From a bacterium (GTDB lineage Bacteria; Sumerlaeota; Sumerlaeia; SLMS01; JAHLLQ01): a stretch of 64,000 bases of DNA. The stretch is from NCBI GenBank assembly GCA_020444065.1, contig JAHLLQ010000002.1, forward strand, positions 744,001 to 808,000. The letters are read 5' to 3'. Below the pieces are notes generated by a model. It did no database searches, was not told where the DNA came from, and saw nothing but the letters and a program-made list of their open reading frames with translations. A program made the position numbers and the translations under genes. Below, piece by piece: positions 11,066 to 18,349 of this stretch; the first letter of the stretch is position 1, and the number at the start of each line of letters is the position of its first letter.

Positions 11066-11926
11066 ATGACCAAGACGGAGACATCGACAATCCGGATGCT
11101 GGCGTTTCTGCCCCTCGATCGGGCCGCGCGTCAGATTGCGTCCGAGGCCGCTCATCTTTGTCATTTGCTCGGAGGAACGCTCGATTTCCTCTTTGCCGGT
11201 TCGGAATCGGACGGCATGCGAGACACGGTCGCGTCGCTGCTTCACAGCACGAAGATTGTCGATTGGGAGCTCCATTTCGCCGAAGGCGCGCTGGCCGCTT
11301 CCATCGAGAACGCAGCCATTGATTTGAAGGCTGATCTCGTCGTTCTGGGGCCGCCGGCGCATCGTAGCGAGAAGGGCGTCCTGACGCGGGGCGACCTGGC
11401 AAAGCTCGCGCGCGTGCTGCCCTGCTCGATGCTTCTGATGCCCGCGTGTCAGCAAGATGGCACGCGCTTCCGAAATCTCGCGGCAGCGATTAAGTACGAT
11501 AGCAGCTCTCTCGCGATGCTGGACTTCCTGTGCGCACTTGCCCGACGGCAGTTCGCCGATCGTCTTCATATCCTTCGCGAATACGATCTCTACGGCTATC
11601 GTGGCGTTGATGATCCGGCGAACGATCCGAAGGCGGATTCGTCCTACAACGAATGGAAGTCCATGGAGTTGTACTTGATGAAGGACTTCCTGGAATTGCC
11701 GAACCTCGATCATCTGAACGTGACGATGGAGGCCATCCGCGGGCTTTGTGGCCGCGGTGCCGTCGAGTTCGCCAGTCGCATCCGAGCGAACTTGCTGGCG
11801 CTTCCCGCTCCGCACCAGAAGAGCAAGTTCTGGAGCCATTTCTTCGGCGAACCCTTCGATCAATTGCTTCAAGAGGAGAGTTGCTCGCTTCTTCTCTTCC
11901 GCGATCAATCAATGGCCCGCAACTGA
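11066..11926 (+). CDS. Tandem universal-stress-protein-like protein
   Basis: 286 residues from the ATG at 11066 (a TTG at 11057 is an alternative start). The N-terminal half has the Usp alpha/beta pattern: L-A-F-L-P-L-D near the start, then K-A-D-L-V-V-L-G-P-P, and V-L-P-C-S-M-L-L-M-P at the end of the first domain. The glycine-rich ATP loop (G-x2-G-x9-G) is not recognisable. The second half looks like a diverged second Usp domain ending C-S-L-L-L-F-R. It is cytosolic, with no signal peptide. The antiporter gene follows 75 nt downstream on the same strand, and Usp proteins are known companions of Kef/CPA-type transporters. A regulatory role for the antiporter is inference. Confidence 0.65.
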   Translation: MTKTETSTIRMLAFLPLDRAARQIASEAAHLCHLLGGTLDFLFAGSESDGMRDTVASLLHSTKIVDWELHFAEGALAASIENAAIDLKADLVVLGPPAHRSEKGVLTRGDLAKLARVLPCSMLLMPACQQDGTRFRNLAAAIKYDSSSLAMLDFLCALARRQFADRLHILREYDLYGYRGVDDPANDPKADSSYNEWKSMELYLMKDFLELPNLDHLNVTMEAIRGLCGRGAVEFASRIRANLLALPAPHQKSKFWSHFFGEPFDQLLQEESCSLLLFRDQSMARN

Positions 11927-12001
11927 CGGCATCGATCGCAACCAACCGCACCTCGAATCAGAACCCCAAAACACTTCAATCCCCGGAACAGGAGTCCACC
12001 G

Positions 12002-14296
12002 ATGGAACTCTCGATGCTCTCCTTACTAACTATTCTCCTCGTCGCCTGGATGGCCGGTATCATTGCCAACCGAATTGGCTTTCCCGCGATTCTTGGCGAA
12101 CTGGCCGCCGGTATCATCATCGGTCCCGCACTGCTAGGGCAGTGGGGGATCGGTTTCGAACAAGCCGTTCCAGGCCTGGACGTGCTCGCACAGATCGGCG
12201 TGTTCGCACTGATGCTCTACATCGGAATGGAAGTCGATTATCGCGACATGTTGCGTTGCGGCAAAGCCGGGTTGCTTGGCGCAATTGGCGGCTTCATCGT
12301 TCCATTCGGGGCAGGCTACCTGATGGCCTACTTGTGGGGAGCCGGTCACGGCGGCGGATTGTTCCTGGGTCTGGCGATGGCCGTTACATCGCTTGCAACG
12401 AAATCTCGCATCCTTGCGGATCTGAATCTGTTTGGGACGCGTATCGCGAACGTTCTTCTTTCCGGCGCGCTGCTCGCAGATGTCGGAGCGCTCGTCGTCT
12501 TTGCTCTCGCAATCGGCATCGTCGGGCCGGAGGGATTCAATGCGATGGATCTGGTGCTCGTTGTGGTGAAGGCGATACTCTTCTTTGCCATCGCGATTGT
12601 CCTGGGCGTAAAGGTTCTTCCCTTTAGTGAAGGTCTGCTTCAGCGACTCGGCATGTCGGAGCGCACGGGCAGCTTCACCTACGTGATGCTCGTTGCTTTG
12701 GTGTACGCGGAACTGGCCCATCTGCTGGGATTGCACGCGATTGTTGGCGCCTTCATGGCCGGCGCATTCATGCGTCGAGGAGTCCTGCGGCACCAACTCT
12801 CACACGAAATCGCGAGTGTCGTGCGAGACATGTCGCTGGGTTTCCTGGCACCGATCTTCTTTGTCACGGTTGGCTTCCATGTTAGTCTCGACGTCGTGTT
12901 TGCGGAGCCGGTGTTTGTGATTCTTGTCATCGCGGCCGCCACGCTGGCGAAGATCTTCGGCACGGCAGGGTTCTATGTCTTCAGCGGCAATGGATGGCGC
13001 GAAGGTATGGTGATTGGTGCCGGCATGAACGGTCGGGGTGCCGTTGAGATCATCATCGCAGAGATCGCTCTTGGTCTCGGAATCATCGATGCCAACCTGT
13101 TCTCGGCACTTGTTCTGATGGCGTTCTTCACAACATTGACGGTACCAATTGGCCTGAAACTCGGCGTGAAGTGGCTTGAGAAGCACGGCGAGCTGGCGCG
13201 CATGGACGATGAACGCGAAGGCATCGTGATCGTCGGCGCGGATGCACTTGGTAGAGCGGTCGCACAGCGAATCCGCCACGAGACAAAGGAACCCGTGTGC
13301 CTGATCGATACGAATCCTGATCACTGTCGAGCGGCGCAGGAAGAGGGATTGGAGGCCATTCGCGGAAGTGCCACGCGTGAAGAAGTACTGATCCTGGCCG
13401 GAGCGCGCGAAGCGTCGACGCTTCTTGCCATGACCACGAACGCGACGATCAATTCACTGGTCGCCCAGCGCGCCCGCGAACTGTTCGGCATTCCGCGCGT
13501 CCGCACAGCGCGTCCTTCGCCAGAGGAAGAAAGCGCCATCCACGGATCAACCCTCGCCCCGATCTGGCCGCACTTGGAGGGCGCACACTTGCTCGATCCA
13601 TGGACGCGCGTTGCAGGGCGTCATCCTGCGCAAACAGAAACCGTCGAAGCGGAAGAAACCGAAACCTGGAGCGAGGCATGCCTGCGACTCGCGAAGTCGC
13701 GCGCCCTACTTCCACTGTTCATTCGACGCGAAGATCGCGCGCGATTTGCTGCGGAAGACGACAAGCTCAAGCCGGGGGACGAGATCATTTGTATGCGGCG
13801 TGACACCGGTGGGGGAGAACTCACACGCCGCTTCGCGGAATCCGTTGCGATGGGCACAGTGCTGGACTTTCAGAACGAGACGAGCTTCGAGACGTTCCTC
13901 GTCAGCGTCGCCGGCAGCCTGAGTTCGCGCCTCGACGTGACGGAGAGCGATCTGGCCGACAGCCTGCGCGAGCGTGAGCGCGAATTCTCGACGGTGCTCG
14001 TACCGGGCATGGCGATTCCTCATGTTTCGCTACCGGGCGTCATTGGCCTGCACATTGCGCTTGTCCGCGCAGAGAAAGGCATCGCGTTTCCAGATCAGAA
14101 CGAACCCGTCACGATGGCATTTGTTCTGATTGGCTCCGAAGAAGACCGCCAGATGCATCTGCATGCACTGTCAACAATTGCGCGACTCGCCGAGTCGGAC
14201 GGATTCGAGCAGGCGTGGCGCCAGGCGAAGACAACCGATGACTTGCGCCAGCACGTACTCGACCTCTGCTGGTCGTTCGAGGAGGAAAACATCTGA
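12002..14296 (+). CDS. CPA2 cation/H+ antiporter fused to RCK (TrkA-N) and PTS EIIA domains
   Basis: 764 residues. Residues 1-390 form a ~12-helix Kef/CPA2-type exchanger, with an A-D-V-G-A-L segment near 159-164 carrying the likely ion-binding aspartate. Residues 405-505 are a TrkA-N Rossmann domain: I-V-I-V-G-A-D-A-L-G, where the middle Gly of GxGxxG is Asp, and the strand-2 acid in L-I-D-T-N. Residues 555-600 resemble a TrkA-C end (L-K-P-G-D-E-I-I-C-M). Residues 610-760 are a fructose/Ntr-type PTS EIIA domain with the phospho-acceptor His674 in G-M-A-I-P-H. The fusion suggests that PTS phosphorylation state controls K+ or Na+ exchange, as free EIIA-Ntr does for K+ systems in enterobacteria; that is inference. 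It ends 9 nt before a convergent gene with no obvious terminator. Confidence 0.88.
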   Translation: MELSMLSLLTILLVAWMAGIIANRIGFPAILGELAAGIIIGPALLGQWGIGFEQAVPGLDVLAQIGVFALMLYIGMEVDYRDMLRCGKAGLLGAIGGFIVPFGAGYLMAYLWGAGHGGGLFLGLAMAVTSLATKSRILADLNLFGTRIANVLLSGALLADVGALVVFALAIGIVGPEGFNAMDLVLVVVKAILFFAIAIVLGVKVLPFSEGLLQRLGMSERTGSFTYVMLVALVYAELAHLLGLHAIVGAFMAGAFMRRGVLRHQLSHEIASVVRDMSLGFLAPIFFVTVGFHVSLDVVFAEPVFVILVIAAATLAKIFGTAGFYVFSGNGWREGMVIGAGMNGRGAVEIIIAEIALGLGIIDANLFSALVLMAFFTTLTVPIGLKLGVKWLEKHGELARMDDEREGIVIVGADALGRAVAQRIRHETKEPVCLIDTNPDHCRAAQEEGLEAIRGSATREEVLILAGAREASTLLAMTTNATINSLVAQRARELFGIPRVRTARPSPEEESAIHGSTLAPIWPHLEGAHLLDPWTRVAGRHPAQTETVEAEETETWSEACLRLAKSRALLPLFIRREDRARFAAEDDKLKPGDEIICMRRDTGGGELTRRFAESVAMGTVLDFQNETSFETFLVSVAGSLSSRLDVTESDLADSLREREREFSTVLVPGMAIPHVSLPGVIGLHIALVRAEKGIAFPDQNEPVTMAFVLIGSEEDRQMHLHALSTIARLAESDGFEQAWRQAKTTDDLRQHVLDLCWSFEEENI

Positions 14297-14305
14297 CGCA
14301 AGGGG

Positions 14306-17300
14306 CTACTGAAGCAGCCAGTAATCGCTCGTGTGTTCCGTCAGCAGAAGAGAGCTCGCGGGCGACTGGCGCCCTTCGTAGATCACAAACGATGTCACAC
14401 GATAGGCCGGCTCCGCGACGCCTGGAATCGTGAAGGACCATTCCTCGGTGATCGATCCGGCTGGCGCCAGAGTCGGAAGCGCCATTTCCCAGCTTTGGAC
14501 AACATCGGACTGGCTGTCGAACGCCTCGACGATCAACGTGCCATCCGTCGAAGCGATCCCATTGTTCGTCACATCAACCTGCAAGGCGATTGTATCGCCG
14601 GCGTAGTAGACGCCGTGATTGGCAGTCAGTTGGCCGAGTTCGAGCCGCGCCGCTCGCACGTCAAACGATTGCTGCGTCGTGGCCAGGATCGTCCCCTCTT
14701 CATTCCAGACTTCTGCCTGCGCGACATAAGCCCCGATAGGAAGATCGGACGTGTCGATAGGGAATGCGACGAGGCCCAGCGGAGTTTGCGCGGCGAGCGT
14801 TCGGACTTCCGTCCCGCCTGCAGTGCTCTCCACGCCAGCGCGATCAAGAACTCGAACTCCGGCGTACAAAGGTCCTGCACCGCCAGTCCAAGAGAACTCC
14901 ACGTTCGCATCAATCGAGTCGCCGCGGAAGGGTTGCTGATTGGTGAGACTGAAGGAAGTTAGCTCGAATCCCACAGCTTGAGTCTCAACCTGGAAGCGGA
15001 ACTGATTCGTGAACTCGGCGACCCCATCCAGGTGAGATTGCTGCAGGGGATAGACTGTGATTCGGAGCAATCGATCCCCAGATGGAAGGAGTCGCGTACT
15101 CCATGAGAATTCGTGATCCGGCCAGACTTCCTTCTCAGGTCCCGCACCTCCGGCATAGATCTTCGGATCATAGTACGTCGCTCCACCAAAAAGTGCGAGC
15201 GCCACATCGGCCGAGAAGACTTCGCCCGCGGACTTCTCCAGCAGGATCACATCAGAGACATCCAGGCTTCCGTCGAGGAGCACTTCCTCCGTGTAGGACG
15301 GCACGAGGGGCTTGCCCGTCTCAAGCACAAAGGGCTGGTTGCCGATCTCGATGATATCTCCCTCGTCGGTCGCGTTCAGTGAGTAATCTGGTACGTCGAT
15401 GATGACTTCCTGAGAGCGCCTCAGGCGCTGCGGCGCCTCTACGCGGGGGCCACCAGTAGGATAGAAGGCATCGTGAATGTGTTTCCCGATCTTCGGATCG
15501 CCATAGAGGTTGTAGCTGACAATCCACTCATTTCGCAGGGCATTCGTGATGTGCCAGGATGAATCGGGATAGAGATCGCTTCGCGTGCGATCCAGGGCAT
15601 ACCCGATACCCTTGTCGTAATTGATCAGGTACCAGAAGAGCTGACCAATCGACGGATCGTTCACCTTGTTGCCGGTGACCTGAATCGCACCGATGTACGC
15701 AGGTACTCCGCGCTCGACCAGCGCATCGGGCATCCCATTGCCGGAGAAGTTGATCCACGAGTTTGGGTAGTAGGAACCGGACAGGCATGTCGTTCCAATC
15801 ATGATAGGACGCGTATTGCCGAAATACCCTAATGGAAACGATGCCGGAACGATATCATCCCAGCCATCCGTCCAGCCATGTCCGAAGTATCCGATCAGGC
15901 CGGAAGACGGGGCTTTGGAGTCGAAGACTGTGCGCTCTGTGTTCTCGACGATCTGTGACAAGAAATCCGCCTGCACCGTTATGTGTGGATAGATCGTTGT
16001 GTGCGAATCGCGCATCGATGTGATCTTGGAAATGAATAGCCCCTCGGACTTCCCTTCGCCCGCCAGCAGATACATTGTTGAACTCGGTCCGCCGAGTGCA
16101 TAAGGGCCAGGATCGAGATCGAGGCTGTTCTGAATGTGCTTCATCAGCTTGTCAGGCGTATTGCCGATGATTCGACCGACATTCAACTCAGGAACGATAT
16201 AGTCGCCAACAGTGTTCGCGTAGAGAATATCAGACGGCCAGCAATACAAGTTATCCCCTGGCTCTTCATTGAAGTAATTCGGAACACTGAAGGCGCTCGC
16301 GGGAACGATGTTTGGCTCGCCCACGAGAAGCAGGTAGCCATTTCCCCAATAGCCGTTTGCCATTTGCTTCTGCCACACGCCAGAGTTCTTCGCGAGCAAA
16401 GGAGTAATCTCGCTGTCATCAACAATCAGTTCTGGCGCAACGAATCCTAGAACTCCATTTCGCCATCGTGCGAGCTCCGCGGTCTTGCGAAGCAGTTTCT
16501 CAACCTTCTTGTTGAGCCACTTCGCCGCCTGATAGGCCTCCATTTCCGAACCGAACGAGTAACCGCCGGCGTATTGTCGAAAGAGCTCTCCTGGACACGT
16601 TAGGATAATGTAATCCGACTGCGCGCACATCGCTTTGTGAAGCGCTGCGGGCGTCATTCCACCCGCCACCATATTCTGCGGAGCATACGTTTCTTCCACA
16701 GTCGGCGAACCGTATGAGCGCTGGAGATAGCGAAACTTGAAGGCCTCTCCGAACGCTGGAACGGCTGGAATCGGTGCCGCCAGCACAGGAACCATATCGA
16801 GCGTGATCTGCAGCGTGTCGCCAGGCTTCATCGTCTTGATGGCCTTGCCTTCCATCTCGTAGCGGCAGCCGCCTTCGATGTGCCAGGTCCGGCTGTAATC
16901 GTAAAAGAGCCCGGCGGAAGAGATAACCTCGAAGTTGAAGATCTGAAAACCATGTACTTCGTACTGAAGGAATTCGACGTTGTTGAGTTCCTGGTTTCCG
17001 TTGTTCAAGAGTTCGATCACAACGCGCACGTAGTTTTCTCCGCCGAAGTTCTGCCACATCACGTCATGCTTCGAGAGCATCCAGCTGTACTTCACCGGTG
17101 GGGGATTCTCGATGTTCACCAGGCGATTCGCATAACCCTTTTTTCCATCGGTATCGATGGCTTCGACGACAAGATAGCGCTCGCCGTTTTGCTCCTTGCG
17201 CGTATCCCAGGAGAAGAGAGCGAACTTGCTGGGAGCTTGCTGGACCTGCGTGTACTTCCTACTATCGCGACAGATTCCATCGACGTAGAAATTCAGCTCG

Positions 17301-18349
17301 GCGACAGCGACATCGTCATCTCCATGACCCTCAAAGGTGATGTATCCTTGGACTGGTGGAAGGAAATCGTAGACAATTTGCGCGGTGGGCACCGTGGTAT
17401 CGATGACATTTGCGATGGAAACATCCGCGCTATCGCTCGCGCGGTTGTCGGCACGGTCGACGGCCTCGACGTTGATATTGTGTGATCCATTGGGGTACTG
17501 AGTCGCGTCGAAATCGAGTTCAAACGGGGCGGAGTAATCGGTCGCGATCAACTCACCATCGATCATGAAGTTTACACGATCCAGAGAGGGATCATTGACT
17601 TCAGGCGCGATGATGGTTCTGCCGCTGATTGTTTCTGGAAGAGGGAGTCCGATGACGGGCGATTCAGCATCGGGCGTCGTCATCTCCGTCCGAAAATTGA
17701 ATGGCAGTGACGACGTCGCGTTTTCCGCTGCATCGGTGATTCTCACTGCGGCCTCGTGCATGGTGTCGGGCAGTAAGCCCTCGATGCGCACGATGTGCGA
17801 GGCACTCGGTGTCAGAATCTCCTCGTAGGCCGAACGCGACCCAAGGGTCTTTCCGTAGTAAACCCGAACCGTGACGGGCTCGTTTGCCTCCACGGAAATC
17901 TCAACCGCATCGGCGGCGATCGAGTCGATCACGGGAAGGGTCACAAAGCTCGGAGCTGTTTGGTCAGATGACCAGGTCTCCTCACGCGTATTGTTGGTCT
18001 CGTCGCCTTCCGCAATGGTGCCGCCGGAATCGACCTGCACGGAGACGTGGATTGCACCCGGAGGCAAATCAATCGGTGCTGTGAAAGCAAGTTGCCTGGA
18101 TTCGCCGGGCGCCAGGTTGCCCGTGGCGATTGTTTCGACTCCGGTCCCATCGACAGACAGCGTGCATTCGATGGAACCATCCGCCTCCTGGTCGCCGGCG
18201 TTTGTGATCGAGATCCAGGGAATCGAGGAGTCCGCATCCCGCCAGATGTCCTCCGCGGCGAGATCGGGCAGAGCAGTCAGTGCATCCGCACAGCACAGAT
18301 GCACAGCAAATACCAGCACTCCTGCAATGAGCAGCCGAAGACGTCTCAT
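14306..18349 (-). CDS. Secreted gingipain-like (peptidase C25) multidomain protein
   Basis: 1347 residues with a signal peptide (~22 residues, ending A-D-A). Order: CARDB-like domain 25-125 (W-I-S-I-T-N-A-G-D-Q-E-A-D-G), fibronectin-III-like ~130-222, two Ig-like modules ~225-412, then the peptidase C25 domain ~560-960. The clan CD dyad is visible: His824 in Y-F-G-H-G-W and Cys855 in I-G-T-T-C-L-S-G-S. The tail holds further CARDB/Ig-like modules to W-L-L-Q. No type IX C-terminal sorting domain is evident, so export and anchoring probably differ from Bacteroidetes gingipains. It probably cleaves extracellular protein; specificity is unknown. It is convergent with the antiporter gene and monocistronic. 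Confidence 0.82.
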   Translation of the reverse strand: MRRLRLLIAGVLVFAVHLCCADALTALPDLAAEDIWRDADSSIPWISITNAGDQEADGSIECTLSVDGTGVETIATGNLAPGESRQLAFTAPIDLPPGAIHVSVQVDSGGTIAEGDETNNTREETWSSDQTAPSFVTLPVIDSIAADAVEISVEANEPVTVRVYYGKTLGSRSAYEEILTPSASHIVRIEGLLPDTMHEAAVRITDAAENATSSLPFNFRTEMTTPDAESPVIGLPLPETISGRTIIAPEVNDPSLDRVNFMIDGELIATDYSAPFELDFDATQYPNGSHNINVEAVDRADNRASDSADVSIANVIDTTVPTAQIVYDFLPPVQGYITFEGHGDDDVAVAELNFYVDGICRDSRKYTQVQQAPSKFALFSWDTRKEQNGERYLVVEAIDTDGKKGYANRLVNIENPPPVKYSWMLSKHDVMWQNFGGENYVRVVIELLNNGNQELNNVEFLQYEVHGFQIFNFEVISSAGLFYDYSRTWHIEGGCRYEMEGKAIKTMKPGDTLQITLDMVPVLAAPIPAVPAFGEAFKFRYLQRSYGSPTVEETYAPQNMVAGGMTPAALHKAMCAQSDYIILTCPGELFRQYAGGYSFGSEMEAYQAAKWLNKKVEKLLRKTAELARWRNGVLGFVAPELIVDDSEITPLLAKNSGVWQKQMANGYWGNGYLLLVGEPNIVPASAFSVPNYFNEEPGDNLYCWPSDILYANTVGDYIVPELNVGRIIGNTPDKLMKHIQNSLDLDPGPYALGGPSSTMYLLAGEGKSEGLFISKITSMRDSHTTIYPHITVQADFLSQIVENTERTVFDSKAPSSGLIGYFGHGWTDGWDDIVPASFPLGYFGNTRPIMIGTTCLSGSYYPNSWINFSGNGMPDALVERGVPAYIGAIQVTGNKVNDPSIGQLFWYLINYDKGIGYALDRTRSDLYPDSSWHITNALRNEWIVSYNLYGDPKIGKHIHDAFYPTGGPRVEAPQRLRRSQEVIIDVPDYSLNATDEGDIIEIGNQPFVLETGKPLVPSYTEEVLLDGSLDVSDVILLEKSAGEVFSADVALALFGGATYYDPKIYAGGAGPEKEVWPDHEFSWSTRLLPSGDRLLRITVYPLQQSHLDGVAEFTNQFRFQVETQAVGFELTSFSLTNQQPFRGDSIDANVEFSWTGGAGPLYAGVRVLDRAGVESTAGGTEVRTLAAQTPLGLVAFPIDTSDLPIGAYVAQAEVWNEEGTILATTQQSFDVRAARLELGQLTANHGVYYAGDTIALQVDVTNNGIASTDGTLIVEAFDSQSDVVQSWEMALPTLAPAGSITEEWSFTIPGVAEPAYRVTSFVIYEGRQSPASSLLLTEHTSDYWLLQ

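Follow-up and report, generated by a model that had tools for sequence, protein, structure and literature searches.

A CPA2-like exchanger–RCK–PTS EIIA fusion paired with a Usp-like gene in Sumerlaeota, a candidate for phosphorelay control of ion exchange

A stretch of 64,000 nucleotides (hereafter the window) from a bacterium of the phylum Sumerlaeota (GenBank assembly GCA_020444065.1, contig JAHLLQ010000002.1, positions 744,001 to 808,000) carries, next to a gene for a Usp-like protein, a gene encoding a single polypeptide in which a membrane domain resembling those of cation/proton antiporters 2 (CPA2-like) is followed by an RCK domain and by an enzyme IIA (EIIA) domain of the phosphotransferase system (PTS). 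The EIIA domain has the conserved histidine, the gene pair is conserved in a second genome, and the window genome encodes enzyme I (EI), HPr and HPr kinase. By analogy with the PtsN-YcgO switch of Escherichia coli, the activity of this exchanger is likely set by the phosphorelay, EIIA gating the exchanger via RCK in a cis version of that switch. The features of the locus are the following.

11066-11926, plus strand: Usp-like protein of 286 residues (Pfam Usp, E 1.7e-7)
11990-11994, plus strand: AGGAG, likely ribosome-binding site 7 bases 5' of the fusion ATG (sequence reading)
12002-14296, plus strand: CPA2-like exchanger–RCK–PTS EIIA fusion gene, 764 residues (Pfam; full-length homologue at 56% identity)
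12038-13159, plus strand: Na_H_Exchanger membrane domain, residues 13-386 (Pfam E 2.7e-57; alignment with 4bwz and KefC)
12479-12481, plus strand: Asp160 codon (aligned with an Asp of 4bwz and KefC)
13223-13513, plus strand: TrkA_N, the N-terminal Rossmann part of RCK, residues 408-504 (Pfam E 4.2e-18; predicted fold)
13235-13252, plus strand: nucleotide loop GADALG (G412-A-D-A-L-G417), with Asp414 in place of the middle Gly
13634-13798, plus strand: RCK_C-like part, about residues 545-599 (order of secondary structures in the model only)
13826-14260, plus strand: PTS EIIA domain, residues 609-753 (Pfam E 6.8e-22 over 642-751; predicted fold)
14021-14023, plus strand: His674 codon, predicted phosphorylation site (alignment with the IPH histidine of EIIA-Ntr)

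The domain order proposed in a preliminary description of the sequence, with CPA2 exchanger, RCK and EIIA in one chain, is borne out by Pfam, the membrane domain being CPA2-like. The Na_H_Exchanger, TrkA_N and PTS_EIIA_2 matches each exceed the Pfam cut-off, and the first is nearly full length (profile positions 2-370 of 375). Among NCBIfam models, the CPA2 model TIGR00932 gives the top match (E 2.1e-36, 125.8 bits), under its cut-off of 238.3 bits, hence the label "CPA2-like". The nearest solved structure for the membrane domain is 4bwz (residues 5-395, E 2.7e-36), which we take to be NapA, followed by KefC (residues 15-495, E 1.4e-18). Asp160 presumably plays the functional role of the Asp with which it aligns. 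The chain of 4bwz differs from the fusion in having no RCK or EIIA and in having an Asp at the position of Ala159, where KefC has a Gln. KefB and KefC, glutathione-gated K+ efflux systems, share with the fusion a Na_H_Exchanger domain followed by RCK. However, the fusion scores below the cut-offs of both models, that of KefC by far (82.9 of 752 bits for KefC, 68.3 of 804 for KefB), carries EIIA, and has a Usp-like neighbor, the partner gene of KefC being of the KefF type. Pfam gives no CorC match in the fusion. As for EIIA, PTS_EIIA_2 scores 78.4 bits against a cut-off of 27, and the scores stay under the PtsN equivalog cut-offs (TIGR01419, 31.1 of 138.7 bits; NF008145, 34 of 221). His674, found in the context GMAIPHVSLPG and aligned with the IPH histidine of the EIIA-Ntr structures 3urr, 4gqx, and 1a6j, is intact, as first described. 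A loss of this residue in homologues had been named as a contrary sign; all 43 aligned EIIA rows retain it (they represent 42 distinct genes, of which one is stand-alone and one is counted twice).

An AlphaFold2 model of residues 396-764, made from a three-sequence alignment (mean pLDDT 74), contains RCK with a Rossmann fold, followed by a less well-modeled RCK_C-like part and by EIIA. The modeled RCK resembles KTN, TrkA, and KefC domains (Z about 13-16). The RCK_C-like part, located between TrkA_N and EIIA and absent from the preliminary description, shows a strand-helix-strand-strand order with low-to-middling pLDDT and no Pfam match. The modeled EIIA fits EIIA-Ntr 2a0j with Z 19.8 (root mean square deviation 1.9 Å, 145 aligned residues). 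It also matches, at lower scores, the cytoplasmic domains of SLC4 exchangers (BTR1, Z 15.6, 2.8 Å, 157 aligned; band 3, Z 13.8, 3.1 Å, 162 aligned). The likeness between EIIA and SLC4 is remarked upon in a review (PMC4664831), and SLC4 bicarbonate/anion exchangers of animals, such as band 3 and BTR1, resemble the fusion as ion exchangers whose chain includes a cytoplasmic domain of EIIA fold. The EIIA of the fusion might accordingly be an unphosphorylated structural or ligand-binding domain. The higher score of EIIA-Ntr, the invariant histidine and the presence of EI and HPr in the genome make this very improbable. In SLC4 exchangers, the EIIA-fold domain is N-terminal and the membrane fold is another one. 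To our knowledge, animals have no PTS.

The window assembly (5.2 Mb, 97% complete) encodes an HPr with the motifs GLHARPA and VNGKSIMG, whose roles we assume to be the usual ones. The HPr gene adjoins that of EI, a protein of 599 residues in which Pfam finds the three EI domains and nothing else, hence no GAF domain. HPr kinase is also present. The preliminary description had taken an absence of EI and HPr from the genome as the outcome that would speak against a phosphorelay; both are there. Its term "self-contained" module is nevertheless wrong because these phosphate donors are encoded elsewhere (contig C3; the fusion is on contig C2). Of the 40 phylum genomes, 34 have a detected HPr, among them 15 of the 18 with exchanger-EIIA genes. 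In the window genome, EIIA is carried by three of the six Na_H_Exchanger genes. One sister protein, P0005 (758 residues, L011:7409-9685, contig C11), is an exchanger-RCK-EIIA chain whose best NCBIfam matches are the PRK05326 models, which we take to represent the YcgO/CvrA family. On this assumption P0005 is nearer to YcgO than the window fusion is and, judging from its sequence, offers the best match in cis to the PtsN-YcgO pair of E. coli. Another exchanger-EIIA gene of the same genome (L012:7072-8784, contig C3) encodes 570 residues without an RCK match; a frame with a baeRF_family10 match lies 5' of it, and the long open reading frames on its 3' side presumably encode Mrp/Mnh antiporter subunits.

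In E. coli, unphosphorylated PtsN binds and inhibits the K+/H+ antiporter YcgO at its cytoplasmic region, and phosphorylation weakens the binding (PMC11808508). The link between EIIA-Ntr and K+ transport in trans, invoked in the preliminary description, is therefore published for YcgO. According to the same source, YcgO (CvrA) and PtsN resemble the fusion by combining a cation/proton antiporter, a putative cytoplasmic RCK and an Ntr-type EIIA whose phosphorylation state matters. They differ from it in that YcgO is a CPA1 protein and its EIIA is not part of the chain but binds to it at a putative CorC domain, whereas the window protein is CPA2-like with EIIA in the chain. By analogy, the fusion would be a monovalent-cation/proton exchanger. 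EI, using phosphoenolpyruvate (PEP), would phosphorylate HPr, which would then phosphorylate His674. EIIA, placed beside RCK under the membrane domain, would hold or release RCK and thereby slow or open the exchanger. With about even confidence, YcgO being the guide, unphosphorylated EIIA would more likely be the brake, and phosphorylation its release. The Usp-like protein would be a likely partner supplying a second signal. Such phosphorelay control is supported by the EIIA and RCK folds, the relay genes, the invariant histidine, P0005, the precedent in trans, the pairing with Usp, and the Usp domains found within other exchanger-EIIA chains.

We searched 61 genomes with the fusion, 40 from the phylum (window genome included) and 21 from outside. 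Matches at E 1e-40 occur in four of them: the window itself, genome G004, which belongs to the same family, over the full length, and G007 and G009 for the membrane domain only. A search for this domain order across genomes, advised in the preliminary description, hence recovers the full architecture together with its Usp gene. Indeed, the G004 homologue is 56% identical over residues 1-753, keeps the histidine and directly follows a gene for a 278-residue Usp homologue (27% identity). As it recurs at such a distance, the arrangement of the window, Usp gene included, is not due to chance. The fusion and Usp proteins of locus L047 (Candidatus Sumerlaeota metagenome-assembled genome (MAG), isolate OFTM212) are identical letter for letter to those of G004. 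L047 is one of three loci returned by a contig scan made with the two-sequence alignment, which used two short peptide patterns and is thus no census; the others are a weak Devosia match and L048. The latter, from a MAG, encodes an exchanger with RCK (membrane domain 53% identical) and no EIIA match, and so points to the addition of EIIA to an exchanger-RCK protein that lacked it.

The gene before the fusion was first described as Usp-like, and Pfam agrees. In the 286-residue protein two stretches match Usp at E 1, the best being 59-124. A structural model is weak (two-sequence alignment, mean pLDDT 58); its top eleven Foldseek matches are Usp proteins, headed by the tandem ones (YdaA/UspE, Rv2623). 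Hence, as far as this model goes, the protein probably consists of two Usp-like halves. The model also resembles, at low confidence, cytoplasmic domains of cation-chloride cotransporters (3g40, 6vwa). A sequence search of the PDB gave a single match, to an unrelated protein (E 0.053). The gap to the fusion gene is of 75 bases, from which we infer an operon; nothing resembling a promoter was found between 10900 and 12100. In the 40 phylum genomes, a profile search at E 1e-12 places this Usp subfamily in four, with one copy each. Since the profile was built from its own four finds, this search shows the absence of others rather than the kinship of the four. In all four cases the gene directly precedes an exchanger-EIIA gene, twice with RCK and twice without. 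The Usp-like protein is thus probably a partner of the fusion, which it may bind. Three further genes, in three other genomes, have a Usp domain between exchanger and EIIA within one chain; the Usp domains of these exchanger-Usp-EIIA chains were considered as members of the window Usp subfamily, a reading dropped after comparison with hhalign.

EIIA fusions are not limited to this architecture. In the 40 phylum genomes, 41 EIIA matches lie in open frames of 414 residues or more, and all of them were classed by Pfam. They comprise 27 exchanger-EIIA proteins (18 genomes), eight amino-acid-permease-EIIA, three EIIA-octopine-dehydrogenase-like and three others. Among the exchangers are two CPA2-like-RCK-EIIA, seven CPA1-like-RCK-EIIA, 12 CPA2-like-EIIA, three exchanger-Usp-EIIA and three of a more distant exchanger type. 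These classes were assigned with home-made hidden Markov models (HMMs) and, in ten proteins, with the top NCBIfam match, which lay under the cut-offs of the antiporter models. The RCK of L059 was detected solely by a home-made HMM. For the three CPA1-like proteins tested (P0005, L067, L083), PRK05326 potassium/proton antiporter models are the best NCBIfam matches, under cut-offs. Outside the phylum, eight of 11 such EIIA frames were scanned by Pfam, giving one exchanger-EIIA, two permease-EIIA and five others (for example PRD regulators, HPr-EI-EIIA, EIIA-EIIB). Since the phylum also has EIIA fused to amino-acid permeases and an octopine-dehydrogenase-like enzyme, another explanation can be put forward, in which EIIA acts as a tether or a sink for phosphate. 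The exchanger would thereby feed back to the PTS, for instance by taking phosphate from HPr or bringing HPr to the membrane, with little effect on flux. With such varied partners, the common factor could be the link to HPr rather than the gating of one fold. We consider this unlikely. EIIA directly follows RCK, presumably the part that controls related transporters. In addition, the free EIIA-Ntr of E. coli acts on the antiporter itself via the cytoplasmic region (PMC11808508).

The preliminary description also noted an altered G-x-D-x-x-G nucleotide loop, and the loop indeed reads GADALG, which departs from the GxGxxG consensus. Asp436, after the second RCK strand, is kept in both full-architecture proteins (window and G004). 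Presumably an Asp at this position is typical of nucleotide-binding RCKs, and it is the argument for control of the exchanger mainly by nucleotide binding to RCK, in the manner of KefC and TrkA, with EIIA providing only fine-tuning. This, too, is very unlikely. All nine RCK-EIIA fusions have another residue (Asp, Thr, His, or Asn) at the position of the middle Gly of the loop, whereas the EIIA-free L048 has kept the Gly. Furthermore, the 12 CPA2-like EIIA proteins show no RCK yet carry EIIA. As to the Usp-like protein, the usual Usp ATP motif is G-2x-G-9x-G-S/T, and its second Gly is missing in all four members of the subfamily (window and three relatives). With the middle Gly of RCK missing, the Usp ATP motif incomplete and Asp436 kept, the sequence speaks both for and against nucleotide gating of the fusion, as first proposed. 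On the whole, what the preliminary description observed is confirmed, and its interpretation is partly supported.

The other exchanger-EIIA proteins of Sumerlaeota (CPA1-like-RCK-EIIA, CPA2-like-EIIA, exchanger-Usp-EIIA) have the same C-terminal EIIA with its histidine on a cation/proton exchanger, but their EIIAs occupy another part of the EIIA tree. This tree contains 77 domains, after removal of five rows (one duplicate gene and four repeat stretches), and has long branches. The EIIAs of the window and of G004 are placed among those of amino-acid permeases (98/85 and 100/99), apart from the other exchanger-EIIA groups. Forcing 24 exchanger-EIIA rows (four classes) into one clade is rejected by the approximately unbiased (AU) test (p 0.006), and forcing the nine RCK-bearing rows gives an AU p of 0.031; these values are indicative, the tests having been chosen after the architectures, and partly after the tree, had been seen, with the distant exchanger class (four rows) excluded. 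Because the window EIIA groups with those of permease fusions, exchanger-EIIA fusions probably arose more than once; given the long branches, this is to be read as more than one origin and not as a count. More than one origin suggests that the EIIA-exchanger link is useful, which argues for control of the exchanger by the relay.

Several points weigh against phosphorelay control. For the direction of control there is a single analogy, YcgO, a CPA1 protein to which no EIIA is fused and whose CorC domain is putative. The exact CPA2-like-RCK-EIIA order occurs in only two of the 40 phylum genomes. HPr was not found in G009, G010, and G011, three of the 18 genomes with exchanger-EIIA genes (75-84% complete). 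Concerning the Usp-like partner, upstream sequence was at hand for 26 of the 27 exchanger-EIIA genes (less than 1 kb for three of them), and 22 of these 26 have no gene of the window Usp subfamily before them. The Usp pair of window and G004 has diverged to 27% identity, vs. 56% for the fusion pair. In-chain Usp domains have no detectable relation to the window subfamily (hhalign probability 0.3%, shallow alignments), so that the exchanger-Usp-EIIA chains offer a parallel in the order of domains and no more. Finally, the account of PTS outputs in the window genome, in itself a point in favor of phosphorelay control, has a defined scope. PTS_EIIC (PF02378), PTS_IIB (PF02302), and EIIA-man gave no match at E 0.01 there, other EII families not being searched; the same searches were positive in 7, 7, and 5 of 14 control genomes, respectively. 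Hence, the four PTS_EIIA_2 genes above the cut-off leave as outputs one stand-alone EIIA and three exchanger fusions, and a fifth, weak match lies below the cut-off (contig C8, E 0.007).

The component families, and an EIIA acting on a cation antiporter in trans, are already known. Literature searches among open-licence PMC papers, covered mostly at the level of titles and abstracts, brought up no antiporter-EIIA fusion, nor the covalent RCK version, the recurrence across exchangers and permeases, the pairing with Usp or more than one origin. In genome annotation, proteins of this kind are apparently labeled as an antiporter with PTS subunit IIA. A one-to-one fusion fixes partner and stoichiometry, which makes phosphorylation state and exchange measurable in one polypeptide. 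It may couple a reduced relay of sugar transport directly to the control of ion balance, and it is a bacterial parallel to the EIIA-fold domain of SLC4 exchangers in animals. That unrelated transporters have taken up EIIA suggests that membrane transport may be under the control of phosphorelays more generally than in the few known cases. A broader proposal, taken as one joint claim and held tentatively, at somewhat less than even confidence, is that in some Sumerlaeota the PTS no longer moves sugar and has become a signaling relay with its main outputs in transporters (several types of cation/proton exchangers, amino-acid permeases) through repeated, independent captures of EIIA. The window protein would be one such capture; a Usp subunit of its own would serve as a second sensor, and PEP status would directly set ion exchange.

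Other arrangements were observed around EIIA. In G022 (L083:183-4167), a CPA2-like-EIIA gene and a CPA1-like-RCK-EIIA gene stand in tandem, 7 bases apart. The C-terminal EIIA of amino-acid permeases is seen at L072, L073, L074, L075, L077, L078, L080, L082, L094, and L095, and in two of these (L082 and L095) a TrkA_C domain comes after EIIA. At L051, L052, and L055, in three genomes of one family, EIIA is at the front of the octopine-dehydrogenase-like NAD enzyme. A frame of 1181 residues in G018 (L057:2326-5868) ends with EIIA and has no other Pfam match at E 0.01. Within the window, the minus strand at 14306-18349 encodes, convergently with the fusion gene, a protein of 1347 residues whose GHG and Cys motifs presumably mark it as a secreted protein of the gingipain type (C25).

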